From Actinotalea sp. JY-7876 (GTDB taxonomy: Bacteria > Actinomycetota > Actinomycetes > Actinomycetales > Cellulomonadaceae): a DNA stretch of 64,000 nt. Position numbers and translations under genes: made by a program. A model generated the notes under the pieces. That model was not told the DNA's origin. It was given only the letters and a program-made list of their open reading frames with translations, and made no database searches. The stretch spans positions 2,294,001-2,358,000 of the forward strand of contig NZ_CP059493.1 of assembly GCF_014042015.1 (NCBI RefSeq). Reading direction: 5' to 3'. Below, in pieces: positions 12,501-33,282 of the stretch. Position 1 is the first letter of the stretch, and each line of letters opens with the position of its first letter.

Positions 12501-13252
12501 CGGATGTCCACCACGGCGGGGCGGTAGCGGTGGTCCGCGTACCACCCGAGCGTGCGGCGCAGGCCCCACGCGTGCACGCGCCGCACGGAGGCGCGCACGA
12601 CGACGTCGCGGCGGTAGCCGTAGCGCGGGGTCAGGCGCCGCACGGCGTTGACCAGCGCGCGGTCCTCGTGGAGGTCCTCGATGGCGGTACGCGGGAAGCC
12701 GCCCGCACGCTCGTACAGGTCCGCCGTGATGGCGAGGTTGCAGCCCGGGCACATGAGGTACGGGCCGAGGTAGGCCGGGTCCTGGTTGCCGGGCCGGATC
12801 TGGCCGAAGCGCGCCGCGACCGCGACGGCGGCCCGCAGCGCGCCGCGCCGCAGCGGTCCCACCGGGACGTCGTCCGAGCGCGGCAGCATCGGGCCCGTGA
12901 CGAGCTCGAGGCCGCCGTCGGTGAGCGCCGTCCGCACGGCGCGCGTCCAGCCGGGCGCGGGCAGGCAGTCGGCGTCCGTGCGCGCCAGGAGGGTCGCGCC
13001 GGCGGCGATCGCCGCGCGCATGCCGGTGTCGGCCGCCGCGCCGGTGCCCTTGAGCGGCTCGTGCAGCACGCGCCAGCGCGCGAGACCCCACCGCTCGACG
13101 AACGCGCGCACGACGTCGGGCGTGCCGTCCGTCGAGCCGTTGTCGACCACGACCACGTCGAAATCCGCGTCCCGCTGGTCGCGCAGCGCGGCGAGCGTCG
13201 CGCCGATGCCGGTGGCCTCCTGGAAGGCGGGGACGACGACGGCGAGGGTCAC
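12497..13252 (-). CDS. Family 2 glycosyltransferase
   Basis: The 251-residue GT-A enzyme starts with GTG (VTLAVVVPAFQEATGIGATLAAL), has VVVDNGSTDGTPDV for nucleotide-sugar binding, ARTDADCLPAPGW containing the DxD metal motif, and a late acceptor region ending IEDLHEDRALVNAVRR. No membrane segment is evident, so it is a soluble or peripheral enzyme. Its GTG overlaps the stop of the OleA-like gene by 4 bp, and its own stop overlaps the P450. A glycosyltransferase inside an OleA/C/D operon suggests that the hydrocarbon-like product is glycosylated, or that the enzyme acts on a linked polar head; donor and acceptor cannot be told. Confidence 0.88.
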   Translation of the reverse strand: MTLAVVVPAFQEATGIGATLAALRDQRDADFDVVVVDNGSTDGTPDVVRAFVERWGLARWRVLHEPLKGTGAAADTGMRAAIAAGATLLARTDADCLPAPGWTRAVRTALTDGGLELVTGPMLPRSDDVPVGPLRRGALRAAVAVAARFGQIRPGNQDPAYLGPYLMCPGCNLAITADLYERAGGFPRTAIEDLHEDRALVNAVRRLTPRYGYRRDVVVRASVRRVHAWGLRRTLGWYADHRYRPAVVDIR

Positions 13253-14289
13253 AGGCGGACGGCCATCGCGCCGATGCTGATGCCGCCCGCGAGGCCCACG
13301 AGGAGCACGACGTCGCCGGGCCCGACGCGCCCCTGCTCCCGCGCCCGCACGAGCTGCAGGGGCAGGGTGACCGACGCGAGGTTGCCGTGCTCGGCCACCG
13401 TGAGCAGCGTGCGGTCGGCGGGCAGGCCGAGCGCGTCGTGGACGTCGCCGAGGTAGGTGACGGCGACCTGGTGCACCGCGACCAGCGCGACGTCGTCCCA
13501 CGTCAGCCCGGCACGCGCGAGCACCTCGAGCACCGTGCCGGGGCCGAGCGCGAGGAAGGCCTCACGCAGGCGCGAGCCGTCGATGTCGAAGTACGTCCGG
13601 TCCAGGTCGCGCGGGTGCGCGGTACCGCCCCCGGGCAGCGTGCCGATGGTCCAGTGCTGCGACTGCGCCGCGAACCCGGACGCGAGGACGCCCACGGGCG
13701 CCGGCCCGGGGTCCGCCGGCGCCGCGCGCAGCAGGAGCGCCGCGCCGCCGTCGGACATCGTGTAGCCCGCCGCCGAGCGCAGGTAGGTCGCACGGTCGGG
13801 CACGTCCCAGCGCACCGCGCGCGACGGCGCCTCGCCGCTCGCCACGAGCACCGTGCGGTACCGCCCGGTGCGGATGAGCGCCTCGCCCACCTCGAGCGCG
13901 TTGAGCACCGAGTTGCACGCGTTCTTGACGTCCATCACCGGACAGCCGAGGCCGAGCTTCTGGGCCACGATGTGCGACGTCGCCGGCTCGACCATGTCCT
14001 GGCTCGCCGAGGCGAACAGGAGCAGGTCGACGTCCTCGAGCGCGAGACCCTGCGCGGCGAGCAGCTTGGCCGCCGCCGCCGTGGCCAGGTCGGACGCCTG
14101 CCAGTCGTCCGGCAGCACGTGCACGGCGCGCACGCCGGTCAGGCGCCCGACCATGCCCGCCGGCGGTGCGACACCGGGGTTGCGCGCGGCGAGCGCGCGC
14201 TCGGCGTCGAGCACGCGGACGGTGCGCTCGGGCAGGTGGACCTCGACCCCCGCGAGCACCGCAGCAGGGACCGCTCTGGGGGAGGGCAT
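13249..14289 (-). CDS. OleA-like thiolase / 3-oxoacyl-ACP synthase III-family protein
   Basis: The 346-residue thiolase-fold enzyme has catalytic Cys125 in KNACNS, His273 in VAVHQVAV and Asn303 in EHGNLAS, the FabH/OleA triad. Glu101 in SQDMVEPATS aligns by pattern with the intersubunit glutamate of OleA (YLEPSTA in Xanthomonas), which FabH lacks. OleA condenses two long acyl-CoAs without decarboxylation to a 2-alkyl-3-oxoacid. The residues are visible; the OleA assignment is inferred from that glutamate and from OleC/OleD-like neighbours. It is first in the operon, with a TAGGCT -10 box ending 7 nt before the ATG at 14289, so its mRNA is probably leaderless. Confidence 0.8.
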   Translation of the reverse strand: MPSPRAVPAAVLAGVEVHLPERTVRVLDAERALAARNPGVAPPAGMVGRLTGVRAVHVLPDDWQASDLATAAAAKLLAAQGLALEDVDLLLFASASQDMVEPATSHIVAQKLGLGCPVMDVKNACNSVLNALEVGEALIRTGRYRTVLVASGEAPSRAVRWDVPDRATYLRSAAGYTMSDGGAALLLRAAPADPGPAPVGVLASGFAAQSQHWTIGTLPGGGTAHPRDLDRTYFDIDGSRLREAFLALGPGTVLEVLARAGLTWDDVALVAVHQVAVTYLGDVHDALGLPADRTLLTVAEHGNLASVTLPLQLVRAREQGRVGPGDVVLLVGLAGGISIGAMAVRL

Positions 14290-14296
14290 GGGCGAG

Positions 14297-14302
14297 AGCC
14301 TA
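14297..14302 (-). promoter_or_regulatory. -10 box of the Ole-like operon
   Basis: TAGGCT on the minus strand lies 7 nt before the ATG of the OleA-like gene, in the 113-bp divergent gap shared with the plus-strand P450. No good -35 was seen, which may indicate activator dependence. On the plus strand a weak CACAGT lies 6 nt before the P450 ATG. Confidence 0.55.
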
Positions 14303-14402
14303 TCGACGGGGGCTCGGCCGGCCCCGGCGCCGACGGGGTGAACTGCCGACGCCGAGGCCGCGAGGCGCGGGACTGAGGCGCGGGACGTGGCACAGTGCGC
14401 GC

Positions 14403-15584
14403 ATGCTCGCCCACGCCCGCGACGTCGCCCTCGTCGTCGCCGCACGCCCCGCGGTGGCCGCGCTGCTGCTCGCCGGCCGCGCCGTCGCCGCCCGCCGCGT
14501 GGTCCGCGTCCCGCGCGTCGGCTGGGTGACCGCCTCCCCCGTGCTGGCCCGGCGGGCGCTCAACGACCACGGCGCGTTCTCGATGGTCGGCGAGGGCGGC
14601 GTCGGGCACCTGTGGGCCCAGGTGCTCGGCCCGTGGGTGACCGAGCTGTTCGACGGGCCCGGGCACCACGACCTGCGGTCGCGCTCGCGCGAGCTGTTCA
14701 CCGACGCGGCGGCGCGCGAGCAGGTGGCGCAGGTGTGGGGACCGCTGCTCGCGTCGGCACGGGCCCTGCTCGCGGCGGGGGGTGAGGTCGACGTCGCGGA
14801 CCTGTCGCGCGTCGCGGTGGGCCGCATGATGATCGCGTCGCTCGGCATCCCGGTGGCGGGCGACGAGGTGAGCGACGACGCCGCGCGGCTGGTCTTCGCC
14901 CGGGGCGAGCGCCTCGCGACGACGGCGGTGCGCGCGACGACCCAGCCGGTGCTCGACCCCGAGCTCGTGCAGGTCGCGCGCGACGTCGTCGCCGAGCTCA
15001 CGGCCGGGGTCCCGCACGCCTACCGCACCGCCCCGGGCTCGACGCTGCTCGGCCGCATGCGCGAGCTGGGCGTGACCGAGCGCGAGGCGACCGGGCTCGC
15101 GGCGCTGCTGCTCGTCGCGGGCACCGAGACGTCGGCTTCCGCGATGCAGCGCACCGTCGCGCTGCTCGTGGACACGGGCGAGCAGCACCGCCTGCTGCGC
15201 CGGCCGGAGCACCTCGACGACGCGGTGCGGGAAGGGCTGCGCGTGAGCACGCCCGCGGTCGTCATCGGGCGCTCGGTCGCGGCCGACGTCGAGCTGGGGG
15301 GCCGCGCGCTGCGCGCCGGGGACAGCCTGCTCGCGCTCGTGTGGTCGGCGAACACCGCCGTCGGGCGCTTCCGCCTCGACCGCCCGTACGCGGCGGAGAA
15401 CCGGCAGCTGTGGTTCGGCGCGGGCCGGCACCTGTGCCTGGGCGCGCCGCTCGCGCGGGCCGAGGTGCGCGGCCTCGTCGAGACCCTCTGGGCGGACGGC
15501 GCGCCGTTGCGCGTGGTGCGACGCAGCGCCCAGCGCGGCGTGCTCGTGCCGTCCTACCGCCGGCTGGTCGTCGCTCGCGCCTGA
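14403..15584 (+). CDS. Cytochrome P450, divergent from the Ole-like operon
   Basis: The 393-residue soluble P450 has heme-binding FGAGRHLCLGAPLA (Cys345), EGLR as ExxR (277-280) and AGTET in the I-helix (239-243). It is transcribed away from the Ole-like operon and shares its 113-bp control region, so co-regulation is likely. The segment QLWFGAG..xLCLG..LA is nearly the same as in the other P450, suggesting they arose by duplication. No ferredoxin gene is adjacent. The chosen ATG at 14403 is the first with a P450-like N-terminus; an upstream in-frame start gives only Arg/Gly-rich shadow sequence. Confidence 0.88.
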   Translation: MLAHARDVALVVAARPAVAALLLAGRAVAARRVVRVPRVGWVTASPVLARRALNDHGAFSMVGEGGVGHLWAQVLGPWVTELFDGPGHHDLRSRSRELFTDAAAREQVAQVWGPLLASARALLAAGGEVDVADLSRVAVGRMMIASLGIPVAGDEVSDDAARLVFARGERLATTAVRATTQPVLDPELVQVARDVVAELTAGVPHAYRTAPGSTLLGRMRELGVTEREATGLAALLLVAGTETSASAMQRTVALLVDTGEQHRLLRRPEHLDDAVREGLRVSTPAVVIGRSVAADVELGGRALRAGDSLLALVWSANTAVGRFRLDRPYAAENRQLWFGAGRHLCLGAPLARAEVRGLVETLWADGAPLRVVRRSAQRGVLVPSYRRLVVARA

Positions 15585-15585
15585 C

Positions 15586-15640
15586 GGCGGAACCTTCCGG
15601 GCGCCGGCGCTCGACCCCGCGGGTCCCGCGGGACGAGCAT
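15586..15640 (+). promoter_or_regulatory. WXG-gene promoter with shared GGCGGAACCTTCC element (copy C)
   Basis: GGCGGAACCTTCC lies at 15586-15598, directly after the P450 stop codon. A -10-like GAGCAT (15635-15640) follows exactly 40 nt after the GGAACC core, and the GTG start is 44 nt further on. Two other WXG-type genes at 31.9 and 32.3 kb have the same element at 40-41 nt from TAGCGT. The core GGAA-CC-TTCC is a small dyad. The spacing is too long for -35/-10, so it is probably an activator site. Confidence 0.65.
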
Positions 15641-15684: not shown

Positions 15685-16593
15685 GTGACCGTCGGCATCT
15701 CGCACGGCGCTGACGCCGAGGCGCTGCGCTCGCTCGCGGTCGCGCTCGCCGCGACCGCCGACCATCTCGAGCAGGTCGACCTGCGCACCGTCGACGGCGT
15801 CGACGGCCTCGGCTGGACGGGGCAGGACGCCCGCACCTTCCGCGCGACCTGGGACGAGACCCACGCGGTGACGCTGCACCTCACCGCGGCCCTGATGCGG
15901 CGCGGCGCCGCGCAGCTCCTGGAGGAGGCGGCCGACCAGGACGAGGCGAGCGGGGGCGCGTCCGGCTGGACCGCGCTGCGCGACCGGGTGCACGCCCGCG
16001 TCGACGCGCTGGGCGAGGTCTTCTCGCAGACCGTCGCCCAGCTCGGCATGCTCGGCACCGCGGTGAGCCTCGCCGAGCTCGGCGACCTGCGTCGCCGCGC
16101 CGGGCAGGCGATGGACGCGGCGGGGGCGTCCGGTGCGCTGGGCGGGTTCCTCGACCGGTCCATCGGCACGGGCACGGGCTCGGTCCTCGGGGTCCTGGGC
16201 GCCATCGGCACCGCGAACGACCTGCACGGCGCCTACCACGGGTACCGGGACGGCGACGGGTGGCAGGCCGTCAACGGCACCGTCTCCGGCGGCCTCGGCG
16301 TCGCGGGCATGGTGACCTCGAGCCCGTGGGTCGCCGGCCCCGCCGTCTCGTGGTCGGCCGGGTCCGCGATCGGGGACGACCTGCGCGAGCGCATGGAGGG
16401 CACGGCGTTCGGGGACCGCTTCACCGACCGCATGGACGCCGTCTTCGACGTGATGGGTCCGGCGGGCATGCTCGTCACGCCGGGCGCGCTGGCCGTGGCG
16501 GCCGGCGAGGCGGTCGTCGACGCGGTGAGCGAGGCCGTGCTGGACCTCACCGACGGTCCCGACGACCCGCTGCTCGGCGGCGGGGGTCGGTGA
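15685..16593 (+). CDS. WXG100-like N-terminus with hydrophobic C-terminal region; possible type VII substrate
   Basis: The 302-residue protein starts with GTG after a strong GGAGGAGGG site. Residues 1-100 look like a WXG100 helical hairpin: ADAEALRSLAVALAATADHLEQ, the turn GLGWTGQDARTFRATWDE with WTG in the WxG place, then a second helix. Residues about 150-285 are Gly/Ala-rich and hydrophobic (GTGTGSVLGVLGAIGTANDLHGAYHGY, VSGGLGVAGMV), reminiscent of the nontoxic middle parts of secreted effectors. I do not recognise a toxin domain. It carries the same upstream element as the WXG genes 16 kb away and is followed 115 bp later by a Ser/Thr kinase gene. Function unknown. Confidence 0.7.
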   Translation: MTVGISHGADAEALRSLAVALAATADHLEQVDLRTVDGVDGLGWTGQDARTFRATWDETHAVTLHLTAALMRRGAAQLLEEAADQDEASGGASGWTALRDRVHARVDALGEVFSQTVAQLGMLGTAVSLAELGDLRRRAGQAMDAAGASGALGGFLDRSIGTGTGSVLGVLGAIGTANDLHGAYHGYRDGDGWQAVNGTVSGGLGVAGMVTSSPWVAGPAVSWSAGSAIGDDLRERMEGTAFGDRFTDRMDAVFDVMGPAGMLVTPGALAVAAGEAVVDAVSEAVLDLTDGPDDPLLGGGGR

Positions 16594-16708: not shown

Positions 16709-18439
16709 ATGCCTGAGCGGGTGGCGGACCCGTCCGACGGGCAGCCCGCGCGGCCGGCGCCGGACGACGCGCTCTGGGCACCCCCGCCCGCCACGCCGCG
16801 CCCCGCCGGCGGGGCGGTGGACCTCGGGCTCGCGGGCTACGAGGACGTCGTCGAGATCGCCCGCGGCGGGGACAGCGTCGTGTACCGCGCGCGCCAGACG
16901 GCGCTGCGGCGTGACGTCGCCATCAAGGTGATCGACGTCGCGGACCCGGCGACGCTCGCGCGCTTCCAGCGCGAGCTCGAGATCACCGTCACGCTCGGGC
17001 GCCAGCACCCGCACATCGTCACGGTCCTCGACACCGCGACGACGCCCGACGGACGTGCCTGCCTCGTCATGGACTTCCACGACCTCGGGTCGCTGCACGA
17101 GCGCGTGCGCGCGCACGGCCCGCTGCCGCCGTCGGAGGTGGTGGCCGCCGGGACCGCCGTCGCGGACGCGCTGGCCTTCGCGCACGCGCACGGGGTCCTG
17201 CACCGCGACGTCAAGCCGCAGAACGTGCTCGTGCTGCCGACCTCGTACGTCCTGACGGACTTCGGGATCGCACGCCGTGCCGACTCCGGGCGCACCGCCT
17301 CGCTCGAGCGGTTCAGCTACCGGCACGCGTCGCCGCAGGTCCTCGACGGGCTCGAGCCGACGGAGGCCGACGACATCTGGTCGCTCGGGTCCACCCTCAG
17401 CACCCTGGTCCACGGTCGCGCGCCGTTCGCGAGCGACGACGAGCACGAGGACACCGCGCTCGGCTACCTGCGCCGCGTCCGCACGGGTCAGATGCGCCCG
17501 CAGGGACGCGACGACGTGCCAGCCGAGCTCGTCGCCGTCATCGAACGGTGCCTGCGCCCGGCGCGCGAGGACCGCTTCCCCGACGCGGCCGCGGTCCGCG
17601 ACGCCCTCGCGGCGGTCCCCACCGAGTCCCGCTCGTGGGCACCGGCCTCCCCCTCGGGGACGGCCCGCGACGCGGCGGCCCCGCGCCCGGCCGCGGCGGC
17701 ACCGGAGCACGGTGGACGGGACGGCGGGGGCCCGCCCGTGGCCCGGGCGCTCGCCCCGAGCGCCCTCGCCGCGGTCGACGTGGCCGGCGGGGGCCGGGCG
17801 GGCGCCGCCGGGGCCGGTGCGGGTTCCGCGCCGCCCGACGCGGACGGCGCGCCGACCGGCATGCTCGACGCCGATGCGGGACCCTCTCGCCCCGCCACGT
17901 CCGCCGGCGACGACGCGCCCGGGGGCGCCGACGGGGCGGTGGACGCGCGGCGGCGCCGCTGGCCGGCGCTCGTCGGCTTCGCCGCGGGAGCGGTGCTGCT
18001 CGGCAGCGGGATCGGCGTCGGCGTCGTCCTGCTGACGGCGCGCGACGCGCCACCCGCCACGGCGCCCGCTCCCCCGCCGACCGCGGTGCCGATCGAGCCG
18101 GACGAGGGCGACGACCTCGCGGAGGTCGACGAGGACCCGCTCGACATCGACCTGTCCGACCCGGCCTACGCCCCGACCGACCTCGTCCTGGTCGACCAGG
18201 GCACGAGCATCCACGCGAGCTGGGCCGACCCGACCGACGGCGGGATCGTCGTCGCCGTGGTGGACGTCACCGACGCGGCCGCCCCCGTGCCCCTCGAGAG
18301 CCTGGGTGCGGGGGTCACGGAGCGCGTCGTCGAGGGCGTCGACCCGAACGCCCCCACGGTGTGCCTCCAGCTCATCGGCATCGACGCCGGCGACCCTCAG
18401 CGCTTCGGCGCCTCCGCGCCCGCCTGCGTCACGCGCTGA
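16709..18439 (+). CDS. Membrane-anchored eukaryotic-type Ser/Thr protein kinase
   Basis: The 576-residue protein has an N-terminal kinase domain (about residues 44-315) with a degenerate glycine loop ARGGDSVVYRAR, VAIK (Lys73), HRDVKPQN (Asp166, Lys168, Asn171) and DFG (Asp183). The usual APE is replaced by SPQ. A long Ala/Pro linker leads to one transmembrane segment near 417-443, and the outside part (about 480-576) looks like a single fibronectin III-type fold. ATG at 16709 follows GAGGAG. It stands beside the type VII-like locus, whose EccC and another protein carry FHA phosphothreonine-binding domains, so it may regulate secretion. Its 3' end overlaps the convergent transglutaminase gene by 43 bp. 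Confidence 0.9.
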   Translation: MPERVADPSDGQPARPAPDDALWAPPPATPRPAGGAVDLGLAGYEDVVEIARGGDSVVYRARQTALRRDVAIKVIDVADPATLARFQRELEITVTLGRQHPHIVTVLDTATTPDGRACLVMDFHDLGSLHERVRAHGPLPPSEVVAAGTAVADALAFAHAHGVLHRDVKPQNVLVLPTSYVLTDFGIARRADSGRTASLERFSYRHASPQVLDGLEPTEADDIWSLGSTLSTLVHGRAPFASDDEHEDTALGYLRRVRTGQMRPQGRDDVPAELVAVIERCLRPAREDRFPDAAAVRDALAAVPTESRSWAPASPSGTARDAAAPRPAAAAPEHGGRDGGGPPVARALAPSALAAVDVAGGGRAGAAGAGAGSAPPDADGAPTGMLDADAGPSRPATSAGDDAPGGADGAVDARRRRWPALVGFAAGAVLLGSGIGVGVVLLTARDAPPATAPAPPPTAVPIEPDEGDDLAEVDEDPLDIDLSDPAYAPTDLVLVDQGTSIHASWADPTDGGIVVAVVDVTDAAAPVPLESLGAGVTERVVEGVDPNAPTVCLQLIGIDAGDPQRFGASAPACVTR

Positions 18440-20694
18440 CCCGGCGCCCCGGCGCGGACCACCACCCGGCCGCGGGCTCCCCCGCGCCGCCGCAGCGGCC
18501 CCGGGTGCCACGTCCAGGCCGCGCGCGTCCGCCACGACGCCCGCCGGCGCACCGCGCGCTCGACCACGCGCGCGAGGCTCCACGCGTCGACCGCGTCGCG
18601 GTGGTCGGGGGCGGGCACCGCCTGCTCGGCGAACGCGGCGTGCTCGGCGAGCACCGCGAGCCGCGCCGCCGCCGAGCCCGGCTCGCCCTCACCGACGCGT
18701 GCCGCCACCTGCCGCGCGTCCGCGCCCGGCGGCAGCGCGACCCCGGCGAGCACGAGCACGTCCTCGACGTGCTGCCACGCACCCACGGCGCCGTGCCGGC
18801 GCAGCCGCCGCAGCCGGCGCGCCCGCAGGACCGCGGACACACCCGCGAGCACCACGACCGACGCGAGCACCGCGACCACCGCCATCGTGACGAGGAGCGC
18901 CGCACGCGGCCCCGGGACCGCGTCGGGCGGGCCGGGGACGGGCTCGGCGTCACCGGACTCCTCCGGCGCGGGGACCGCCGCGGGATCGGGGGGTTCGAGC
19001 TCCCCGTCGGTCGCGAGGTCGAGCGCGTCGGTCGCACGGTCGGCCGCCGTGCCGCTCGCCGCGGGGCTCGGGTCGAACGCGACCCACCCGGCCCCCGCGA
19101 GGTACACCTCGGGCCACACGTGCGCGTCCTCGCCCCGCACCACGACGGAGCCGTCCGTCGCAGGCTCCGGGAGCACGAACCCGAGCACGAGACGCGACGG
19201 CAGGCCGGCGGCCCGCGCGAGCACCGCGAACGAGCTCGCGAACTGCTCCGCCGTGCCGACCTGACCGCCCTGCTCGGGCTCCGCGAAGAGGAACTCGCGC
19301 ACGCGTGCGTACGACGAGCCGGACACGGCGTCGGGCGCGAGCTCACGGTCGGCGCGCACGGTCTCCTCGATGAGGCGCGCCTGCACGAGGCGCGACGGCG
19401 CGTGCTGCGTCACGGTGCGCGCGTACGCGAGCACGTCGGCCGGGATGCGCGGGAGCTCGAGGTAGCGCGCGACCTCCGCGCCGCTCGGGACGCCCGCCGT
19501 CGCGAGGGTCGCAGCGGCCGGCTGGTCGACGTCGGCCGTCACCCGGTAGACGGACCCGGCGGCGAGCCCCTCGGGCGCCACGAGCGATCCCGTCTCGACG
19601 TCCCACAGCGCGCCCGGGACGGTGACCGAGACCGGCCGGCCGGCCGTGGGCAGCCAGGTCCCCGTCCCGAGGGCGGGACTCGCGAGCCCCGTGAGCTCCA
19701 GCGTCGCGTCCATCCGCCCGACCTCGGCCCCCGGGGGGAGCGAGGGTGACGCGACCGCGCCGACGGGGCGCAGGCTGGAGCCGGACCGCCAGGTCGCCCC
19801 GTCGAAGTCGGGGAGCACGACGAGCGACAGGCGCGGCGGCAGGGCACCGGTCGCGACCAGGAGCTCGCGATCGGGCTCGGCCGCCCAGACGGCGAGCTGC
19901 GGCAGCGGGTGCGTCGCGTCCACGCGCACCACGGGCGGCGTCACGTGCTCGCGCGGCTCGAAGGGCTCGCCGCGCGTGAGGGCGCCGCCCGCCGCCGTCG
20001 CGGACGCGGCCACGAGCACGGCGGCGAGGGCCGCCGGCGTCGCGGGCCGCCAGCGTCGTCGGGCGCGGCCCTCGGCCCTGCCGAGCGAGGCCGGGTCGCG
20101 ACGCAGGTCCGGCGCGCCGTGCCCGTCGAGCAGCACCCACCCGGCAGCCGCGACGACGACGAGGAGGCCCGCGACGACGCCGTGCGGGTCCGCTCCCCCG
20201 GCGGTGAGCAGGAGCGCTGCCGCGTACAGCACGGCGCCGCCGACGAGCGGGCCGGCGCCGGGGGTCGCCCTCCGCGTCGCGGCCAGGGCGACGGCGAGCG
20301 AGACCAGCGCGACGAGCACGAGCACGGGCGCGACGTGGACGGGGGTCGGCTCCGCCGGGCGCGGCGCCGTGAGCAGGCGCGCGACCGCGTCCGCGAGCGG
20401 GCCGAGCGCCTCTCCGAGGGCGCTCGCCCGCCAGCCGCCGACGGCCGGGCCCGGGTCGCCGGCCACCCCGCGCACCGAGGTGACGGCGGCGACCAGCACG
20501 AGGGCGGTCGTCGCAGCGGCCACGGCCCACGCCGGCACGCTCAGCCGCGCCCCCAGGGCCACCGCCCCGAAGGGGAGGACGACGGCGGCCAGCAGGAGGA
20601 GGACGAGCACCGGCCCCGCCGTGAAGGCGGTCACGAGGGTCGTCGCCGCGACCGCGGGGACCAGTGCCGCCCAGGCGACGCGCGCGGCCCTCAT
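18397..20694 (-). CDS. TgpA-like membrane protein with transglutaminase-like domain lacking the catalytic Cys
   Basis: The 765-residue protein begins with about six transmembrane segments (residues 5-230, DUF3488-like), then a periplasm-side transglutaminase-like domain, another membrane segment near 610 and a cytoplasmic DUF4129-like tail (about 660-740). The core GTAEQFASSFAVLARAAGLPSR has Ala482 where the catalytic Cys normally stands, while the His (DAHVWPEV) and Asp (WVAFDPSPA) remain. It is therefore likely a non-enzymatic member. It is last in the EccC, MoxR, DUF58 operon, overlapping DUF58 by 4 bp. MoxR-DUF58-TgpA triads are common but poorly understood. Confidence 0.85.
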   Translation of the reverse strand: MRAARVAWAALVPAVAATTLVTAFTAGPVLVLLLLAAVVLPFGAVALGARLSVPAWAVAAATTALVLVAAVTSVRGVAGDPGPAVGGWRASALGEALGPLADAVARLLTAPRPAEPTPVHVAPVLVLVALVSLAVALAATRRATPGAGPLVGGAVLYAAALLLTAGGADPHGVVAGLLVVVAAAGWVLLDGHGAPDLRRDPASLGRAEGRARRRWRPATPAALAAVLVAASATAAGGALTRGEPFEPREHVTPPVVRVDATHPLPQLAVWAAEPDRELLVATGALPPRLSLVVLPDFDGATWRSGSSLRPVGAVASPSLPPGAEVGRMDATLELTGLASPALGTGTWLPTAGRPVSVTVPGALWDVETGSLVAPEGLAAGSVYRVTADVDQPAAATLATAGVPSGAEVARYLELPRIPADVLAYARTVTQHAPSRLVQARLIEETVRADRELAPDAVSGSSYARVREFLFAEPEQGGQVGTAEQFASSFAVLARAAGLPSRLVLGFVLPEPATDGSVVVRGEDAHVWPEVYLAGAGWVAFDPSPAASGTAADRATDALDLATDGELEPPDPAAVPAPEESGDAEPVPGPPDAVPGPRAALLVTMAVVAVLASVVVLAGVSAVLRARRLRRLRRHGAVGAWQHVEDVLVLAGVALPPGADARQVAARVGEGEPGSAAARLAVLAEHAAFAEQAVPAPDHRDAVDAWSLARVVERAVRRRASWRTRAAWTWHPGPLRRRGGARGRVVVRAGAPGQRVTQAGAEAPKR

Positions 20695-25800: not shown

Positions 25801-25900
25801 CCTGACCGCCGCGCCGCCCCGCGCGACCCGCCCCGCGGCCGGCACGGCGCGCCAGGCGGCGCAGCACGCCGCCGGCGGGGCTCGTCAGGTTCCGCGTCAT
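22850..25900 (-). CDS. Large exported fibronectin III/beta-propeller-like membrane protein of the type VII-like locus
   Basis: The 1016-residue protein has a basic Arg/Gly N-terminus, a membrane or signal segment near 35-60 (EAGVAVTGLALVLGAAV), a repetitive beta-strand region about 65-385 (DGATWLPDDSSGQVLQVNPATGEVERR, propeller-like), then a Pro/Thr-rich stalk (about 387-530). At least two to three fibronectin III-like modules follow (about 535-830), then an Ig-like region and a C-terminal membrane helix (about 965-985, PFLAAGVVLLGAAGAL). It overlaps EccC upstream and MoxR downstream (ATGA). The architecture fits a surface or periplasm-side component; no enzymatic motif is seen. Similar genes occur beside actinobacterial WXG100/EccC loci, but their role is unknown to me. 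Confidence 0.8.
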   Translation of the reverse strand: MTRNLTSPAGGVLRRLARRAGRGAGRAGRRGGQGGFVEAGVAVTGLALVLGAAVGSGVASTAVTMSDGATWLPDDSSGQVLQVNPATGEVERRLQVAGSGASLLITQRDGMLVVDDDATGVITTIDLATLLAGGQRGTGATRTTVLVGGGNVFLVDLAGTVRAVDPLTLRDLGAPHRTDALADAVVDDAGTVWLVTTDGEIEELRWSASSARFTVERDRPLRGAGSQSRMVPHADGVTVFSPDGGTVAQVGAGRDLIVAAPGLSGAVLPAETSPSTLAPVAAPSAAEVVMVSGGALLAVDVGALGCHRPSNPAVFASRVYVPCDGTGHVLVLGPDGRRAARDIIVPGGLNPRLVVDDGRLVAYSESATAAVVVEADGSTREIETGPGRTPVQDPSRPPVAAPPVTAPPSSTQPSSTQPSSPQPSLPPSPGTPDAAELPDAGGTVPGEQPTTPPTGGPGADDPTVPSTLPPTAPPTGLPTGPPTGPPTAPPTGAPTGPPTTPQPTGSPTAPPTAPPTAGPQAPLAPGQVRASRTADGTAQVTWRPQGPQADTFVVRASGGAAVPAVEVDGSSTEATVTGLECEARVTFTVEAVLDGATARSGGSSPVVMQACPAAPSPPTAATGVVATAAGDGSVTVSWTAASSGADRYVVSPEGHAGTDVGTATSVRLTDVAPGAGVRFVVQTWLGGAAATSAPSNAVTVAGPPGAPPGVSAEVTGRSGDTLTVAVGFGAAADNGSPVTRYAVQWSGGGASGARDLPAAGGTTLTFSCAGQALCTSGGALQVSVTAHNGAGAGPVATATAAVAPPPPPAPRAGDGVVSWVTFAAPGQYDQEIPMRAGLAPPAGWAAHTGGCELVVTSTAGSGSSRSIPCATSGEVWLGQFPGGSTVTVSVRALGLDVTSAAVPGEVPLRNSWAYCDPNTGICTQPVGLPTDPDAGTATIVPLPWTPVPGLPGGPEPGPFLAAGVVLLGAAGALRAARLRERVQSGLASDRADGCDVAPVVVPPSHPTSPTIEETRP
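24633..24677. repeat. Three 15-bp tandem repeats inside the Pro/Thr stalk
   Basis: Three adjacent copies of GG(T/C)TGGG(T/G)GCTGCTC encode SSxQP units (SSTQPSSTQPSSPQP) on the minus strand. They mark a low-complexity stalk that can change length by slippage. Confidence 0.75.
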
Positions 25901-28900
25901 CGGACACCTTCCCGTTCGCTCGAGGGGGATAGTACGTGGACCACGCGCACCGCTCCCGCCGTGATCAGCAGGCCCCGCCCGGGTCCGGTCAGGGGCTCGT
26001 GAGTGTGCAGGGGAACGGACGCGGCCACCAGCCCCCCGTCGGCCATCTCGGGCGCCAGCAGGACGGCGCGCCGGCTCCGCCGGGCGGCCGCGACCGGACC
26101 GGCGACGTGCTGGCGCGCGCGGGCGTCGTCGGGGTCCGTCGCGACGACGACGGCGATCCCGAGCCCCCGGGCGGCGTCGACGAGGCGGGCGAGCGCCTCG
26201 GCGGCCGCGCGGCGCGCGTCGCCCGACTCCCAGCCCCGCTCCCACTCGTGGCAGTCGTCCAGCAGGACGAGCGACCACGTCCCTGCCGGGGAGGCCGCGA
26301 GGAGCTCGTCGACCCACGCGGCGACGGCGGCCGGGTCGTCGAGCACGAGGTCGACGTCGCGGGCGTCGGCCGCGCCCGCACGCGGACCGACGAGCACCGT
26401 GCGCACGGGCGGCCGCGAGGACCGGCGCGCGAGCTCGGCGAGGCCGAGCAGGAACGAGGTCCGGCCGCTGCCGCCGCGGCCCGTGACCAGCAGGGGCCCC
26501 TCGGCGAGGCGCAGGGTGACCGCCGACGCGAACTCGGCGTCGACGCCCAGGCACATCTCGTCGGCGACGGGCGCGGGCACGAGCCGGGCGGGCATGCGGG
26601 TCGGCATCGCGGGCACGACGACGGCCGGCGAGGCCGCGTAGCGCTGCCCGCACCGCTCCGCGAGCTCGGCGACGAGCCCGGCCTGCGCGGGCGTCCCCGC
26701 TCCGCCGATGCTCGCGACCTGGATCTCGTGGCGCCCGAGGAGGCCGCGACCCGGCGCCGAGTCGGCGTCGAGCACGCCGTCGGGCACGCCCAGCATCTGG
26801 TAGTCGTCGGGCGTCGTCATGCGGAGCACGAGGCGCTCGCCGAACGCCGCCTGCATCGCGCTCGGCACGCCCGTGCGGCGCGGCGTCGTCGCGGTGACGT
26901 GCACGCCGCAGCGACGCCCCTCCTGGAGCACCGTCACGAGCTGGTCGACGTGCGCGCGCCGCAGCGCGCCGCCCCCCTCGAGCTGCTCGAGCAGCGCAGG
27001 CAGGTTGTCCACGAGCAGGTGCACGCGCGGGATCAGCACGCCCTGGGCCTGGAGCGCCCCGAGGTCGGCCGCGCCCCGGGCCGCGAGCAGGCCGTTCCGC
27101 TCGACGACCGTGCGGTGCAGCATCCGGATGAGCCGCTGCACGCGCTCGGCGGCCTGCTCGACGACGACGGAGCCCACCGACGGCAGGGCGTCGAGCACGC
27201 TCAGCCCGCCGCCCCCGGCGTCGATCGCGTAGACGAGTGCGGGAGCCGCCTCCTCGCACACGGTCGCGGCGACGGCGACCGTGCGCAGGAGCTCCGTCTT
27301 GCCGCTGCCGGACGCGCCGAAGACCAGGACGTGGCCGGTGCGCGCGTAGTCGAGCACGAACGGCTCCTGCTGCTGGCGGGACGGGACGTCGACGAGCCCG
27401 ACGACGAGGCGGCCCGGGGCCGGCTCGAAGGTCACCGCGTCGGGCGTGCTCCCCGGGACCGCCGCCTCGTCCCCGGCGTCGGGACCGACGACGACGCGGC
27501 CGTCCGGGCCGGCGGCGAGGGTGAGCTCGGTCGGCAGCGGCGGCAGCCACGGCCTGCGGGGCGCGGGGCGGCCCGAGCGGCGGTGCGCCGCACCGACCGT
27601 GCGCACGAGGCGCCCGAGGTCGGCCTCGGCGTGGACGCGCGCGGGCGCACCCGGGGCGCGGCCGTCGTCGTGCGCGTCGAAGGGCCCCAGGTCCCGCGCC
27701 GCGAACGGACGCACGTCCACGCGCGCGGCGGCGTCGCGCACCGGCTCGTGCGCCCCGACCCAGGCGACCTGGACGAGCTCGCGCGTGCCGTGGCCCGTGC
27801 GGCGCAGCCACGCACGCCCGGGCGTGCGCCGGGACAGGCGCACGGCGTCAGCGGTGTCGATGACGTCGGTCGAGTCCTCGGGCGACGCCATCCGCAGCGC
27901 GATCCGCAGGTCGGTGTTCGCCTTGATCTGCGGCGTCACGACGCCCGCGGGGCGCTGCGTCGCGAGCAGCAGGTGCATCCCGAGCGAGCGCCCCCGCTGC
28001 GCGATGCTGACCATCCCATCGACGAACTCGGGCACCTCGGCCAGGAGGGCGGCGAACTCGTCGACGCAGATGAGCATGCTCGGCGGCGCGGCCTCGGGGT
28101 GGTCCCGCTCCATGGCCAGCAGGTCCTTGGCCCCGTAGGCGGCCAGCAGGTGCTCGCGCGTCGTGAGCTCCGCCTGGAGCGAGACGAGCGCGCGCTGCAC
28201 GAGCGCGGGCGTGAGGTCGGTGATGTAGCCGACGGTGTGCGGCAGGTCCGCGCACTCCCGGAACGCGGCGCCGCCCTTGTAGTCGACGAGGAGGAAGGTC
28301 ATCCGGCTCGGCGGGTTGTTGAGCGCGAGCGAGCACAGCAGCGTCTGCAGCAGCTCGCTCTTGCCCGAGCCGGTGGTCCCCGCGACGAGCCCGTGCGGCC
28401 CGTCCTCACGCAGGTCGATCGTCACGACGCCGTCGGCGCCGGCCCCGATCTGCGCGCGCAGGCCGCGCGCGGCGGCCCAGCGGTCCAGCACCGCGCCGAC
28501 GTCGTCGGGGTCGGCCAGGTCGGCACCGAGGTCGGGCAGCCGGACCTGCTCCGGGACCGCGCTGTCCGCCGGCACGACGGCGGCGTCGTCCTGGTACGCC
28601 GTCATGGTCCGGGCCGTGCGCCACGCGTCGACCAGGGGCAGCGCATCGGCCTGCCGGACCTCCTCGACGCCCCCGCGGTCGCGGCGCAGGAGGCGCCCGG
28701 CCGCCAGGTCGAGGACCACGCCCGTCGCCGCCGGCACCGTCGCGGGGTCGGGGCCGAGCCAGACGAGGTGCAGGCCACGCTCGGTGCCCTGCGCCGCGGC
28801 GGCCTCGAGCACGCGACGCGGGACGCCCGCCGCGTCGTCGACGAGGCAGACGGTGCGGGCGCGTCCCCGCTCCTCCGAGACCAGCAGGTCGAGCAGGTGC

Positions 28901-30294
28901 TGGCCCGGGCCGGCGCCCACGGCCACCGGCTCCGCGCCGCCCGCGCGCCGTCCGGTGTGGGGCAGCCAGCGCAGCCACGTCTCCACGTGCGTGCGGTCGA
29001 CGCCGAGCACAGCGGCGAAGGTGAGGTCCGTCGGCGAGTGCTGGGCCGCGAGCCGCAGGACCAGGGCGCGCACGGTGGCGTCGACGTCGTCCCGCGGGCC
29101 CGTGACGGCCACGAGGCCGTGGTCCCCCAGGGGCACGGGCACCGGGAGGTCCGCGAGCGTCGCGCGCCCGCCCACCTCGCGCAGCGCGAGCTCGCGCTGC
29201 GTGCGGTCGCCGCCGCGGGCGACGCTCGCGGTGACCACCGCGGGCCGCGGGCCCCGGCCGCCCCCGACGCGCAGGAAGTCGGGGTCGTCCACCTGGCGCG
29301 CCCACAGGCTCGGGTGCCGCTCCCGGACGCGGGCGCGCAGGACGTCCAGGCGCGGCTCGTCCTCGTCCGCGTGGCTGCGCTGGAGCTCGGCCGCAGCGTC
29401 GAGCGCGACGAGCACCTCGTCGACCTCCGTGCGCCACACGCGCAGCTCCGCGGCGTGGTCGGCCCTCTGCCGTCGCCGCTGGACCAGGTGGGTGGCGAGC
29501 ATCATGACCGGGAACCCGATCATGAACAGGAGCGAGAACGGGCTCCGCGACATCGCGAACATCCCGCCGCCGAGCAGGACGGGCATGAGCATCATCGGCC
29601 ACGGCAGCGGCTGCGGCTCGGGCGCCGCCGGTGGTGCGGGGACCTCGACCTCGTCCGCGACCAGCGGCTCGCCGAAGCGCGGCGGGCGCAGGACCGACAC
29701 GGCCGGGCCACCGGGCGCCGACGAGTCGGCGGGCTCGAGGACGACCACGCTCTCGCCGAGCACGATCCGCTCCCCCCACGCCGCCGGCTGAGGGCGGGAG
29801 ACCTCGACGTCGCCCACCCGGGTGCCGTGGGCCGAGCCCTCGTCGACGACCACCGGGCGTCCGACGAGCAGCACCCGGGCGTGCACGCGCGAGACGGCGG
29901 GGTCCGTGAGGACGAGCGTGCAGGTCGGCGCCCGTCCGATGGTCAGGGCGTCCCCCTCGACGCGCACCTGCCGGCCCGCGTCCGGACCCGCGACGACCCG
30001 GGCGACCGCGCGCGCCCGGCGCCGGTGGGCGGGGCGCGTGAGCCACTCGCGCGTGACGACGGCGACCTCGACCATGTCGCCGGTGCGCAGGTCGCTCTCC
30101 GTCAGCAGCAGGTCGGCACCCCACGGGGCGCCGTCCGTCACGGGGGCGAGGAGCGTCCCCGACGTCGGACCCGCGAGGTGCTCGCCGAGCGCCGCGGCGA
30201 GGTCGGCCACGCGCGCGTCGGGCCGCGCGTCGACGACGACGTCGACGGGCCGCAGGCCGCTCTCGCGCGAGGGCCGGACGCTGATCCGCCACAT
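25897..30294 (-). CDS. EccC/EssC-type FtsK/SpoIIIE translocase ATPase with FHA domain
   Basis: The 1465-residue motor of a type VII-like system starts with a beta-rich segment (about 1-85) and an FHA domain (about 105-175; GR at 120-121, SRVH at 135-138, GSAHGT at 153-158). Two transmembrane helices follow (about 235-275, MMLMPVLLGGGMF and LLFMIGFPVMM), then three P-loop domains. The first (GTTGSGKSE, Lys645) and second (GASGSGKTE, Lys999) have intact Walker A; the third reads GRGGSGRTS with Arg1278 replacing Lys. VDYKGGAAF and ATQRPAGVVTPQIKANTD are typical. The FHA-EccC fusion follows the Firmicutes EssC pattern rather than split mycobacterial EccCa/Cb. It overlaps the next gene by 4 bp; a strong hairpin and a tandem repeat separate it from the WXG100 gene. 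Confidence 0.93.
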   Translation of the reverse strand: MWRISVRPSRESGLRPVDVVVDARPDARVADLAAALGEHLAGPTSGTLLAPVTDGAPWGADLLLTESDLRTGDMVEVAVVTREWLTRPAHRRRARAVARVVAGPDAGRQVRVEGDALTIGRAPTCTLVLTDPAVSRVHARVLLVGRPVVVDEGSAHGTRVGDVEVSRPQPAAWGERIVLGESVVVLEPADSSAPGGPAVSVLRPPRFGEPLVADEVEVPAPPAAPEPQPLPWPMMLMPVLLGGGMFAMSRSPFSLLFMIGFPVMMLATHLVQRRRQRADHAAELRVWRTEVDEVLVALDAAAELQRSHADEDEPRLDVLRARVRERHPSLWARQVDDPDFLRVGGGRGPRPAVVTASVARGGDRTQRELALREVGGRATLADLPVPVPLGDHGLVAVTGPRDDVDATVRALVLRLAAQHSPTDLTFAAVLGVDRTHVETWLRWLPHTGRRAGGAEPVAVGAGPGQHLLDLLVSEERGRARTVCLVDDAAGVPRRVLEAAAAQGTERGLHLVWLGPDPATVPAATGVVLDLAAGRLLRRDRGGVEEVRQADALPLVDAWRTARTMTAYQDDAAVVPADSAVPEQVRLPDLGADLADPDDVGAVLDRWAAARGLRAQIGAGADGVVTIDLREDGPHGLVAGTTGSGKSELLQTLLCSLALNNPPSRMTFLLVDYKGGAAFRECADLPHTVGYITDLTPALVQRALVSLQAELTTREHLLAAYGAKDLLAMERDHPEAAPPSMLICVDEFAALLAEVPEFVDGMVSIAQRGRSLGMHLLLATQRPAGVVTPQIKANTDLRIALRMASPEDSTDVIDTADAVRLSRRTPGRAWLRRTGHGTRELVQVAWVGAHEPVRDAAARVDVRPFAARDLGPFDAHDDGRAPGAPARVHAEADLGRLVRTVGAAHRRSGRPAPRRPWLPPLPTELTLAAGPDGRVVVGPDAGDEAAVPGSTPDAVTFEPAPGRLVVGLVDVPSRQQQEPFVLDYARTGHVLVFGASGSGKTELLRTVAVAATVCEEAAPALVYAIDAGGGGLSVLDALPSVGSVVVEQAAERVQRLIRMLHRTVVERNGLLAARGAADLGALQAQGVLIPRVHLLVDNLPALLEQLEGGGALRRAHVDQLVTVLQEGRRCGVHVTATTPRRTGVPSAMQAAFGERLVLRMTTPDDYQMLGVPDGVLDADSAPGRGLLGRHEIQVASIGGAGTPAQAGLVAELAERCGQRYAASPAVVVPAMPTRMPARLVPAPVADEMCLGVDAEFASAVTLRLAEGPLLVTGRGGSGRTSFLLGLAELARRSSRPPVRTVLVGPRAGAADARDVDLVLDDPAAVAAWVDELLAASPAGTWSLVLLDDCHEWERGWESGDARRAAAEALARLVDAARGLGIAVVVATDPDDARARQHVAGPVAAARRSRRAVLLAPEMADGGLVAASVPLHTHEPLTGPGRGLLITAGAVRVVHVLSPSSEREGVR

Positions 30295-30422: not shown

Positions 30423-30689
30423 TCAGCTGGAGGCGCGCTCCTGGTCGTCGGCCTGGGCGGAGAGCGTCGCCGCGTTCTCCTGCAGGGCCTGGACCACGCG
30501 CTGGAGCGCGGGCACGTACTGGCCCTGCCAGTCACTCGTGAAGCGCTGCGCGTCCGGGCCGTACCAGGGCGTCGCCTCGAGCTGCTGCGTCAGGCGCGCC
30601 GTGATCTGCGTGATGCTGTCCGCGTCGACGTTCATGATCCGGACGAGGTCGCGGGCGGCGGTGATGTCCATGCCGAGGACGTTGCTCAT
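30423..30689 (-). CDS. WXG100-family protein (EsxB-like)
   Basis: The 88-residue protein has a helix, the turn PWYGPDAQRF with WYG in the WxG position (Trp42), and a second helix ending QENAATLSAQADDQERASS. Length and motif fit the WXG100 family, small helical-hairpin substrates of EccC-type systems that form dimers. The start has AAGGAGA upstream. It lies directly before EccC, separated by a hairpin that may raise its dose. There is no C-terminal YxxxD/E signal of mycobacterial type; the tail is ADDQERASS. Confidence 0.92.
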   Translation of the reverse strand: MSNVLGMDITAARDLVRIMNVDADSITQITARLTQQLEATPWYGPDAQRFTSDWQGQYVPALQRVVQALQENAATLSAQADDQERASS

Positions 30690-30782: not shown

Positions 30783-31907
30783 TCAGCGGGCCGTGGCCTG
30801 CCCCGGGGTGCCCCCGGGACGGACGTGCGTGGTCGGGCGGTCGAGACCGCCGCCCGTGGCGAGGGCGGTGTCGGCCTGCGTCGCGGTGCCGTCGGGGGCG
30901 TCGTCGGCGTCGGCGCCCGGACCGCGCGCCGCGCGCAGCGCGCCGAGGGTCGCGGCACCGAGCCCCGCGAGGCCGAGCGGTGCCGCCGCGAGCGCCGGGC
31001 TCACGCCCGAGCCGGCGTCCTGGGGTGCCATCAGGCCGGCGCTCGTGCCGGTGCCCGGGTCGGCGCCGGCGGCCGCGACGGCGTCGAGGCCGCCCCGCGT
31101 GCCGAGCGCGCTGGCGCTGACGGGCGGGTCGCCCGCGGCGATCACCGGACCACCGGACGCGCCGTCGAGGCTGCCCGGGCCCGGGCCGACCGGTGCCACC
31201 GCGGCACCGCCCGAGCTCCCGGTGCCGCCGACGCTCCCGGCGCCGTCCGTCCACCCCGGGCCTGCGAGACCCGCCGGGACACCTCCGCCGGCGGAGGTCC
31301 CGCCGGCGCCGAGCCCACCGCCGGCGAGCGCTCCGCCGCCCACGGCCCCGCCGCCCAGCGCCCCGCCCGGGACGGGCGCCGCCGACGCGGCGCTCCCCGC
31401 CGGGACCGGCGCGCTCACCTGCGAACCACCGCCGACCGCTCCGCCGCCGGTCGCCCCCGCCGTCGGCATCCCGATCCCCTGCGGCGCGGTGATCGTCACC
31501 TGCACCCCGCTCGCGCCGCCACCGGCGCCCTGGGCGCTGATGGCGGCCGACGGCGCCACCAGGCGCGGCGCGACGACGGCCGACTGCGTCGGGTAGACCG
31601 TCGGCGTCCACGACCCGGCGGGCAGCGCGACGCGCACGACGTCGCCGCTGACCTCCTTCTGCTGCTTCGAGGCCAGCGCGAGGACCTGGGCGAACGTGCG
31701 CAGGTACTTCCCGGTCGTCTGCACCCACGGGATGACGACACCCTTGAGGTAGGCGGCGAAGGCCGCGGCCCACCCGGTCCACGACATGGCCTCGAGGGCC
31801 GCGACCACGATCTTCAGCGCGACGACGACGTCGTCCGCGAAGTCGGCCGCCTCGTTCGTGCGCCGCGCGAGCGTGTCGAGCCCGTCGACGTCTGCTCCCT
31901 GGAACAT
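30783..31907 (-). CDS. WXG-like helical N-terminus with long Gly/Ala-rich tail
   Basis: The 374-residue protein has a helical N-terminus of about 95 residues: TLARRTNEAADFADDVVVALKIVVAALEAMSWTGWAAAFAAYL with WTG at the turn, then a second helix to SKQQKEVSGDVV. Residues about 115-320 are Gly/Ala/Pro-rich low complexity. A short hydrophobic segment (ALAAAPLGLAGLGAATLGALRAA, about 318-340) may insert in the membrane. The layout resembles PPE/WXG proteins with a linker, and its context between two WXG100 genes suggests a substrate or accessory of the EccC machine. No further domain is recognised. GGAGGT precedes the ATG. Its promoter carries copy A of the shared element. Confidence 0.72.
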   Translation of the reverse strand: MFQGADVDGLDTLARRTNEAADFADDVVVALKIVVAALEAMSWTGWAAAFAAYLKGVVIPWVQTTGKYLRTFAQVLALASKQQKEVSGDVVRVALPAGSWTPTVYPTQSAVVAPRLVAPSAAISAQGAGGGASGVQVTITAPQGIGMPTAGATGGGAVGGGSQVSAPVPAGSAASAAPVPGGALGGGAVGGGALAGGGLGAGGTSAGGGVPAGLAGPGWTDGAGSVGGTGSSGGAAVAPVGPGPGSLDGASGGPVIAAGDPPVSASALGTRGGLDAVAAAGADPGTGTSAGLMAPQDAGSGVSPALAAAPLGLAGLGAATLGALRAARGPGADADDAPDGTATQADTALATGGGLDRPTTHVRPGGTPGQATAR

Positions 31908-31949: not shown

Positions 31950-32004
31950 ACGCTAGGGACGCGGGACGCGCAGGCCCAGGGCCCGGCGGGTGGAAGGTTC
32001 CGCC
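31950..32004 (-). promoter_or_regulatory. WXG-gene promoter with shared element (copy A)
   Basis: On the minus strand GGCGGAACCTTCC (31992-32004) lies 31 bp past the upstream WXG100 stop codon. The -10 box TAGCGT (31950-31955) is 40 nt after the GGAACC core, and the ATG lies 42 nt further. Copy B shares 17 bp (GGCGGAACCTTCCACCC) and CCTAGCGTCC at the -10. There is no recognisable -35, fitting activator dependence. Confidence 0.68.
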
Positions 32005-32034: not shown

Positions 32035-32310
32035 TCACCGGCTGGCCTCGTCCTGCAGGTCGGCACGCCGCTTGAGCTCGGCGGCGTTCTCCCGCAGGTT
32101 GTCGGTCGCCGCGGCGAGCTCGGGACGCAGGGACCCCTCCCACTCGCCGGCGAAGCGCTGTGCATCCGCGCCCACCCACGTGACCTGCGCGAGCATCGCG
32201 CTGACCTGGCCCACCATGGACTTCAGGCTCGCCGCGCCGTCGTCCATCCGGCGCGAGGCCTCACGGCTGTACTCGGGGTCGATGCCGTAGAACTGCGACT
32301 TGTCGTACAT
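32035..32310 (-). CDS. WXG100-family protein (EsxA-like)
   Basis: The 91-residue protein starts MYDKSQFYGIDPEYSREASRRM. It has WVG (Trp45) at the helix turn in VTWVGADAQRFAGEWEG and a second helix ending ELKRRADLQDEASR. It is similar in length and layout to the other WXG100 protein 1.3 kb downstream, so the two could form a heterodimer. The ATG follows CAGGAGGA. The promoter has copy B of the GGCGGAACCTTCC element just after the FHA gene stop. Confidence 0.92.
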   Translation of the reverse strand: MYDKSQFYGIDPEYSREASRRMDDGAASLKSMVGQVSAMLAQVTWVGADAQRFAGEWEGSLRPELAAATDNLRENAAELKRRADLQDEASR

Positions 32311-32353: not shown

Positions 32354-32409
32354 ACGCTAGGCAGGACGCGCGGGCGCGAGCCAGGCTCGCGGGGGTGGAA
32401 GGTTCCGCC
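32354..32409 (-). promoter_or_regulatory. WXG-gene promoter with shared element (copy B)
   Basis: The element GGCGGAACCTTCC (32397-32409) sits 3 bp past the stop codon of the FHA-like gene. TAGCGT (32354-32359) follows 41 nt after GGAACC, and the ATG is 43 nt further. Spacing and sequence agree with copies A and C. Confidence 0.7.
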
Positions 32410-32412
32410 GCG

Positions 32413-33282
32413 TCAGGCGCGGTCGGCGCCCTCGACGGGCCGATCGGGCTGCAGGCCGTCGCCGCGTGCTCGTGCCTGCTCGACGAGCGCGAGGTCGGCG
32501 GCCGTGACGAGGCGCACCTCGGCCGCCCGGCGCCCGACGGCGAAGCGCACGTTCTGCACGCGCCCCGCGGTCTGGGTGAAGGGGTCGTCGTCCGGCCCGA
32601 AGGCCATGCGCGCGACGGACCGGATCGCGTCGTCGACGCGCTGCGCGCGCTCGAGGTTCCAGGCGTGCCCGCGCCAGTGCAGGATGCGCTCGAAGATCTC
32701 GCGGTTGGACGCCGGACGCGGGTAGTCGTCGGCGCCGACCAGCCACGGCTCCGCGAGCGCCAGGGCGACGTACCACTCGCGGGACCAGCGTTCCAGGTGC
32801 GGCGCGGGGGCGGTGGCCGCACCGTCCGGGTCGGGCTCGGCGACGCCCGGCAGCGGCACCACGGCCGCCGGCTCGGGGATGCTCACGTCGACGACGAGCA
32901 CGAGGTCCGTGTACCTGTCGGGCGCCGTCTGCCGGCCACGGAGCAGCAGGACGTGGTTCTCGCCCTCGTCCAGGAGCGCCGCCATCCCGTCCGCCAGGGC
33001 GACGCGCCGCGCACCGCCCGGGGCGTCGAAGAGGCTCGAGAGCTGGGCCTCCGTGGAGCCGTGCCAGCGCAGTCGCACGACCTCCTCGCCGACGACGATC
33101 TCCCCGACCACGCGGGAGACGTGCGGCGCGACGCGCGGAAGGGCCAGCGCGGTGCGCCGCAGCTCGGCGTCGGGGTCCTCGTCCGGCAGCGCCCCGTGCG
33201 GCGCCCGGCCCACGAGCAGGCTCTCGCCGGAGCCGAGCACCACCGTCGGCACCCCTACCCCGCGCAACGTCACCCTGAGCAC
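32413..33282 (-). CDS. FHA-like protein with C-terminal helical domain
   Basis: The 289-residue protein starts with GTG after AGGGGGA. Residues 1-125 look like a divergent FHA domain: GSGESLLVGRAPHG, then PHVSRVVGEIVV and RLRWHGSTEAQL, giving the GR...S/R...H-x-x pattern. The middle (about 150-170) is Pro-rich. The C-terminal part (about 175-255, REWYVALALAEPWLVGADDYPRPASNREIFERILHW) is helical and may be a winged-helix fold. It opens the type VII-like locus. Paired with a membrane Ser/Thr kinase and a second FHA in EccC, it may sense phosphothreonine. DNA binding by the tail is only a guess, but it is a candidate regulator of the shared WXG promoters. Confidence 0.65.
   Translation of the reverse strand: MLRVTLRGVGVPTVVLGSGESLLVGRAPHGALPDEDPDAELRRTALALPRVAPHVSRVVGEIVVGEEVVRLRWHGSTEAQLSSLFDAPGGARRVALADGMAALLDEGENHVLLLRGRQTAPDRYTDLVLVVDVSIPEPAAVVPLPGVAEPDPDGAATAPAPHLERWSREWYVALALAEPWLVGADDYPRPASNREIFERILHWRGHAWNLERAQRVDDAIRSVARMAFGPDDDPFTQTAGRVQNVRFAVGRRAAEVRLVTAADLALVEQARARGDGLQPDRPVEGADRA

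Follow-up and report, generated by a model that had tools for sequence, protein, structure and literature searches.

Within a 64,000-nucleotide stretch of Actinotalea sp. JY-7876 (contig NZ_CP059493.1, positions 2,294,001 to 2,358,000; hereafter the window), three copies of a short sequence element, A, B and C, precede genes for WXG-type proteins. Judged from the letters of this genome and its relatives, the element belongs to a real, conserved type VII promoter element with a regulon of its own, and with a probability of roughly 0.75 we read it as the operator of an activator of type VII-like genes, acting on primary-sigma promoters. A first-pass annotation had reported an identical 13-mer, GGCGGAACCTTCC, upstream of three genes, and exact copies were indeed found at all three places on both strands (15586-15598, +, copy C; 31992-32004, −, copy A; 32397-32409, −, copy B). 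The whole genome (3.55 Mb, one contig) holds these three exact copies and no more, each preceding WXG/type VII-like genes. With at most one mismatch, seven sites were found in the genome versus two for a reversed control pattern. With up to two mismatches, the window yielded seven matches, the four non-exact ones each carrying two mismatches, compared to an expectation of 2.26 ± 1.53; one of 100 shuffles reached seven.

The 13-mer is part of a wider, imperfect 7-2-7 dyad with the consensus GGYGGAA-NN-TTCCRCC(CC), and the dyad pattern GGAANNTTCC occurs in the window only at copies A, B and C (0.09 sites expected). By majority, six of the seven arm positions are symmetric (GGCGGAA; reversed GGTGGAA), the inner four being the criterion by which sites were selected. 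The centre is variable (CC, GT, CG, GG, GC, AC, AT, CT, TG), while outside the selected arms a C stands at −1 in 36 of 40 sites and CCC at +12 to +14 in 37-38 of 40. The dyad is wider than the GGAA-CC-TTCC core placed at about −50 in the first-pass annotation, and it is centered at approximately −53.5/−54.5 if the −10-like hexamer is taken as −12 to −7. The hexamers themselves lie where they had been placed, 44, 42 and 43 nt from the start codons for copies C, A and B, respectively. However, the gap between the end of the 13-mer and the hexamer, given earlier as 40, 40 and 41 nt, is 36, 36 and 37 nt by direct count; the relative spacing, with C equal to A and B one nucleotide longer, had been correct.

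The strongest regularity of the element is its fixed distance to the proposed −10, expressed here as the offset from the start of GGAA to the start of the −10 and scanned from 12 to 79. In a hand-picked set of 42 sites, defined by a dyad with a type VII-like gene downstream, TANNNT was present at 47/48 in 33 and at no other offset, and NANNNT at 47/48 in all 42. Since this set is open to the objection of choice, an unselected test covered every GGAANNTTCC in the window and 11 loci of relatives (36 sites, 72 readings). Here, TANNNT occurred 14 times at 47 and 15 times at 48, but at most once at any other offset, and 28 of the 36 sites carried it at 47/48. Nine dyads lie outside the 42-site set, among them L167, L168, L024 9847, L125 1442 and L023 8212. 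Of these nine, L125 1442 shows GACACT at 48 ahead of a WXG-like gene, and L023 8212 has TANNNT at 47 without a recognised type VII gene downstream. Among further sites the 47/48 rule holds with the exception of L070; the dyad of L121 is imperfect and is followed by TAGCGT at 48. Variants of the −10 (TAGCTT, TAACTT, TACCTT, CAGACT, GACGAT) keep the A and the T. The −35 position, in turn, is not near TTGACA and reads CTGG in 18, CTGT in 5 and CTCG in 5 of the 42 sites. The promoters would be of the primary-sigma (sigma70/HrdB) type, with a good or tolerable −10 and a poor −35. Tandem dyads exactly 25 bp apart were also seen before a 374-amino-acid (374-aa) protein homologue (L024 9847/9872, the former being the outer member, and L061 1483/1508).

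Conservation in relatives supports both the element and its target genes. When 200 genomes of the family were searched for the core followed by the −10 at 36-44 nt, nine matched, our own included, versus one for the reversed control pattern. Outside our own genome there were nine matches, seven of which precede a homologue of the 374-aa gene; the other two (L015, L018) do not precede type VII genes and were set aside. L018 (G189 C1:2270933) combines the core and TAGCGT at the right spacing with a downstream gene for a 319-aa secreted-looking, non-WXG-like protein, and may be a further target or a chance match. In addition, 11 loci were fetched from named genomes encoding relatives of the 374-aa protein, from Cellulomonas (4), Phytoactinopolyspora (2), Pseudactinotalea (2), Actinotalea, Nakamurella and Janibacter. 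All 11 carry GGAANNTTCC before type VII-like genes, namely WXG100 genes and the 374-aa homologue, to which some loci add the ATPase or the 302-aa homologue. The window and these loci together hold 36 dyads versus 0.74 expected, which, along with the three exact genomic copies, bears out the earlier view that the repeat is unlikely to be due to chance; the scan suggested at that time, across the own and related genomes, placed dyads before WXG genes and not scattered over the genome.

A promoter profile, R1, was built from 27 promoters of relatives with our own sequences excluded. In our own genome it recovered copy B (46.2 bits, E 1.8e-11) and copy A (46.0 bits, E 2.1e-11), the best unrelated place scoring 15.4 bits (E 0.085). 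Promoter profile matches were found in 15 of 15 sampled genomes with the gene for a conserved 289-aa protein beside the cluster, and in 0 of 65 genomes with a distant EccC only. Among genomes without the 289-aa gene, the profile matches of L063, L066 and L078 have no nearby dyad at up to one mismatch, and two more were set aside, one reading into an open frame (L065) and one before a lipoprotein-like gene (L079). L089 has no dyad either.

Copy C, upstream of the 302-aa gene, is a diverged copy, and its place in the regulon is supported by the relatives. Counterparts of the 302-aa gene were identified in 14 genomes, our own included, and all 14 have a dyad ahead of this gene; the other four sampled genomes with a 289-aa gene gave partial matches to the 302-aa protein only. 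In five genomes of the family (L087, L088, L090, L091, L092), a third profile match, at a distance of 16-20 kb from the main cluster and on the other strand, precedes 303-316-aa homologues. The remaining eight, besides our own, are L116 and L118 (family), L173, L174 and L175 (another family), and L025, L026 and L028, whose sequences went into R1 and thus are no test of it. At an E of 0.05, R1 missed our own, G382 and G408 among the 302-aa-gene promoters. In 11 of the 14 promoters of this gene, the −10 at 47/48 is without its initial T while retaining A and T, and CTCGAC occupies the −35 position in 6 of 14, copy C among them. Because the counterparts show the same pattern, GAGCAT fits, and copy C can be regarded as a diverged member. 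Inclusion of the 302-aa gene in a type VII-like regulon, as proposed in the first-pass annotation, is thereby strongly supported. The 302-aa protein itself had no match in NCBIfam and a weak, sub-threshold one to Pfam DUF6066, and is likely a type VII substrate or partner. The Ser/Thr kinase gene behind it is possibly cotranscribed, and a tie of the regulon to phosphorylation would be speculation.

With regard to mechanism, a dimeric protein would bind the dyad upstream of the −35 position and help RNA polymerase at promoters with a poor −35. Its targets, switched on together, would be the 302-aa gene, the WXG genes and the operon for EccC-type secretion, joined in relatives by effector-like operons at unlinked places. 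Contact of the activator with RNA polymerase is suggested by the upstream position, the spacing, which is constant to within 1 bp or displaced by one helical turn, the poor −35 and the primary-sigma-like −10. The element, its spacing and its conservation ahead of these genes are observed directly, whereas we infer binding, activation, the −10/−35 assignment and the identity of the binder from sequence. The dyad could also be the operator of a repressor, as repression would be compatible with a palindromic site ahead of a promoter and as the nearest precedent, the transcription factor EspM, which is encoded beside mycobacterial ESX-1 and has an N-terminal FHA domain, represses whiB6 according to PMC7002343. 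This is unlikely, however, since the dyad lies upstream of the −35 position and not over the promoter, its distance is fixed to 1 bp or a 10-bp shift, and the −35 is far from TTGACA, all of which suits an activator. GGAAC and CGTC resemble the promoter boxes of extracytoplasmic function (ECF) sigma factors, and an alternative sigma factor might read GGAAC together with TAGCGTC. Yet the two are about 45 nt apart instead of about 16-17, the palindromic arms enclose a free centre, and the −10, though variable, keeps its A and T as sigma70 boxes do, which leaves this explanation very improbable. Chance repeats are hardly credible at all: while copy C, taken by itself, would not convince as a complete promoter, the dyads recur in the 11 named relatives and the promoter in 15 sampled genomes, and the search of 200 genomes matched 9 versus 1 for the reversed control pattern. 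Both the ECF sigma and the chance explanation were rejected on the dyad counts, the control pattern and the fixed spacing.

Some observations weigh against an activator operator read by the 289-aa protein. Copy C scores only 12.0 bits with R1 (E 0.99, rank 15 of 47), which is insufficient alone. Of 296 genomes of the class, exactly the same 8 have the promoter, the 289-aa gene and the EccC subtype, so their linkage is no proof of regulation, and the 289-aa protein belongs to no recognised DNA-binding family. The latter two points would equally suit an activator encoded elsewhere, for instance a response regulator of the NarL/LuxR type, with the 289-aa protein as a co-travelling secretion component; this is a serious contender, if at less than even odds. 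On the other side, the 289-aa gene is the sole potential regulator that 11 of 11 relatives keep alongside the WXG genes, the ATPase gene and other genes of the cluster, and the C-terminal domain of its product is, among the chains compared, nearest to NarL/LuxR helix-turn-helix domains, albeit weakly. Encoded next to the element and co-inherited with it, the 289-aa protein appears to be the likeliest binder, with a probability approaching one half. Going further, we tentatively propose, short of even confidence, that it founds a new family of DNA-binding activators, one that defines a type VII regulon across six or more actinobacterial genera, with the dyad as a genome-readable signature of unlinked effectors.

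Domain searches constrain this candidate. A DNA-binding fold is weakly supported: all 12 members of its family were without a Pfam match to a GerE/LuxR helix-turn-helix or receiver domain, one of the 12 matched VMAP-M19 (E 0.014), Foldseek gave no significant match for the whole model (predicted local distance difference test score, pLDDT, 52.9) or the C-terminal domain, and profile searches of PDB sequences returned nothing below E 0.16. The best weak match of the C-terminal profile, L105 (E 7.6e-4), was discarded as a repeat-like protein unmatched by the full profile. An FHA domain was dropped as well, with Pfam FHA matching 0 of 12 members at E ≤1; comparison with the EccC FHA domain gave 2.4% probability over 26 columns around a GR motif from shallow alignments, and a degenerate FHA fold is possible.

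With EspM as described in PMC7002343 and PMC11005418, the candidate would share its place at the type VII locus that it controls and a two-part build with a putative C-terminal DNA-binding half. The difference is that EspM has an FHA domain and none was detected in the 289-aa protein, and that the site here, a dyad, belongs to promoters of WXG and ATPase genes; with no FHA domain detected, the 289-aa protein was not retained as an EspM-like regulator. In PMC7419079, NarL 7-2-7 operators activate primary-sigma promoters from −44.5, −67.5 and −77.5; they likewise consist of two 7-base inverted arms separated by 2 bp, upstream of the −35 and at more than one position. However, sequence and centre position differ here, and the candidate has no receiver or GerE-type profile match.

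The cluster itself resembles EccC/EssC type VII loci in its FHA- and FtsK-bearing ATPase and its WXG100-like proteins. WXG100 matches were obtained with Pfam (8.7e-5) and NCBIfam (5.8e-6, 3.1e-6), and the ATPase qualifies as EccC/EssC-like by TIGR03928 (E 6.5e-138), TIGR03924 (1.2e-103) and TIGR03925 (4.9e-83). All of these scores fall below curated cut-offs. The EccC is a subtype of its own, which exceeds 520 bits only in the 8 of 296 class genomes.

The element is of interest mainly as a means to find further exported proteins, as a tight promoter signature links scattered substrates to one system without protein similarity, names a candidate regulator and points to effector-like operons at other genomic sites. 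The L165 dyad, some 0.9 Mb from the cluster, precedes a gene for a 335-aa protein whose head is WXG-like (by eye) and whose C-terminal domain is VgrG3-like (PF21277, E 2.4e-56). The L167 and L168 dyads lead operons for a 175-/164-aa protein and a 451-/447-aa protein, the latter combining a WXG-like head with a tail resembling PGAP1/hydrolases (E 3.1e-7, 3e-5). There (L167, −, 2776; L168, +, 284), TAGCGT is one helical turn (10 bp) closer, at offset 37/38, consistent with a protein in contact with RNA polymerase; the start codon follows about 48 nt after the GGAA start, and the transcripts are possibly leaderless. If the proposal holds, unlinked effectors with a WXG head and a cell-wall-enzyme-like or hydrolase-like tail could be read from genomes via the 7-2-7 dyad. 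In the 15 sampled genomes with a 289-aa gene, 23 of 53 WXG/302-like proteins had an upstream profile match (E ≤0.05, −20 to 300 nt upstream, same strand) and 30 had none; many of the strongest unpaired matches precede the 374-aa gene, which that protein set omits. How type VII secretion is controlled in bacteria other than mycobacteria and Firmicutes seems to be little studied, and the papers listed in our literature search included no report on it for this group. Nor was a report of the dyad element among the papers listed, so that its absence from print is not established. The available part of PMC12691689 mentions Cellulomonas in passing only.

Table 1. Features of the window discussed in the text (offsets counted from the start of GGAA; −10, −35 and binder assignments are predictions).
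Feature	Position	Strand	Basis or remark
Copy C dyad, GGCGGAA-CC-TTCCGGG, right outer arm diverged	15586..15601	+	sequence
Copy C −35 position, CTCGAC	15610..15615	+	same in 5/13 counterparts
Copy C −10-like, GAGCAT, offset 47	15635..15640	+	sequence
302-aa protein, WXG-like N-terminal part (W-x-G)	15685..16593	+	sequence, profiles
Ser/Thr protein kinase	16709..18439	+	profile; start codon by inspection
EccC/EssC-like secretion ATPase, FHA and FtsK/SpoIIIE domains	25897..30294	−	type VII profiles below cut-off
WXG100-like 88-aa protein, without own dyad	30423..30689	−	profile
374-aa protein, WXG-like N-terminal part, Gly-rich tail	30783..31907	−	sequence
Copy A −10, TAGCGT, offset 47	31950..31955	−	sequence
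Copy A −35 position, CTGGGC	31974..31979	−	sequence
Copy A dyad, GGCGGAA-CC-TTCCACC	31989..32004	−	sequence
WXG100-like 91-aa protein	32035..32310	−	Pfam, NCBIfam matches below curated cut-offs
Copy B −10, TAGCGT, offset 48	32354..32359	−	sequence
Copy B −35 position, CTGGCT	32379..32384	−	sequence
Copy B dyad, GGCGGAA-CC-TTCCACC	32394..32409	−	sequence
Conserved 289-aa protein, candidate dyad binder; C-terminal helical domain, weak helix-turn-helix likeness	32413..33282	−	

At L175 9991-10024 (= L023 8188-8221), two dyads 24 bp apart, one with TANNNT at 47, sit between a large XRE-like gene and a gene for an 87-aa secreted-looking protein. Behind the ATPase gene of the window, genes with fn3, MoxR-type AAA, DUF58 and transglutaminase/TgpA domains (18397-25879, −) form a linked set that is partly kept in relatives. 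Directly before copy C, AMP-binding, two P450-like, KAS III-like and sugar-epimerase-like (by eye) genes (8717-15584) look like a small biosynthetic cluster, and the P450 frame ends 2 nt before the copy C 13-mer.
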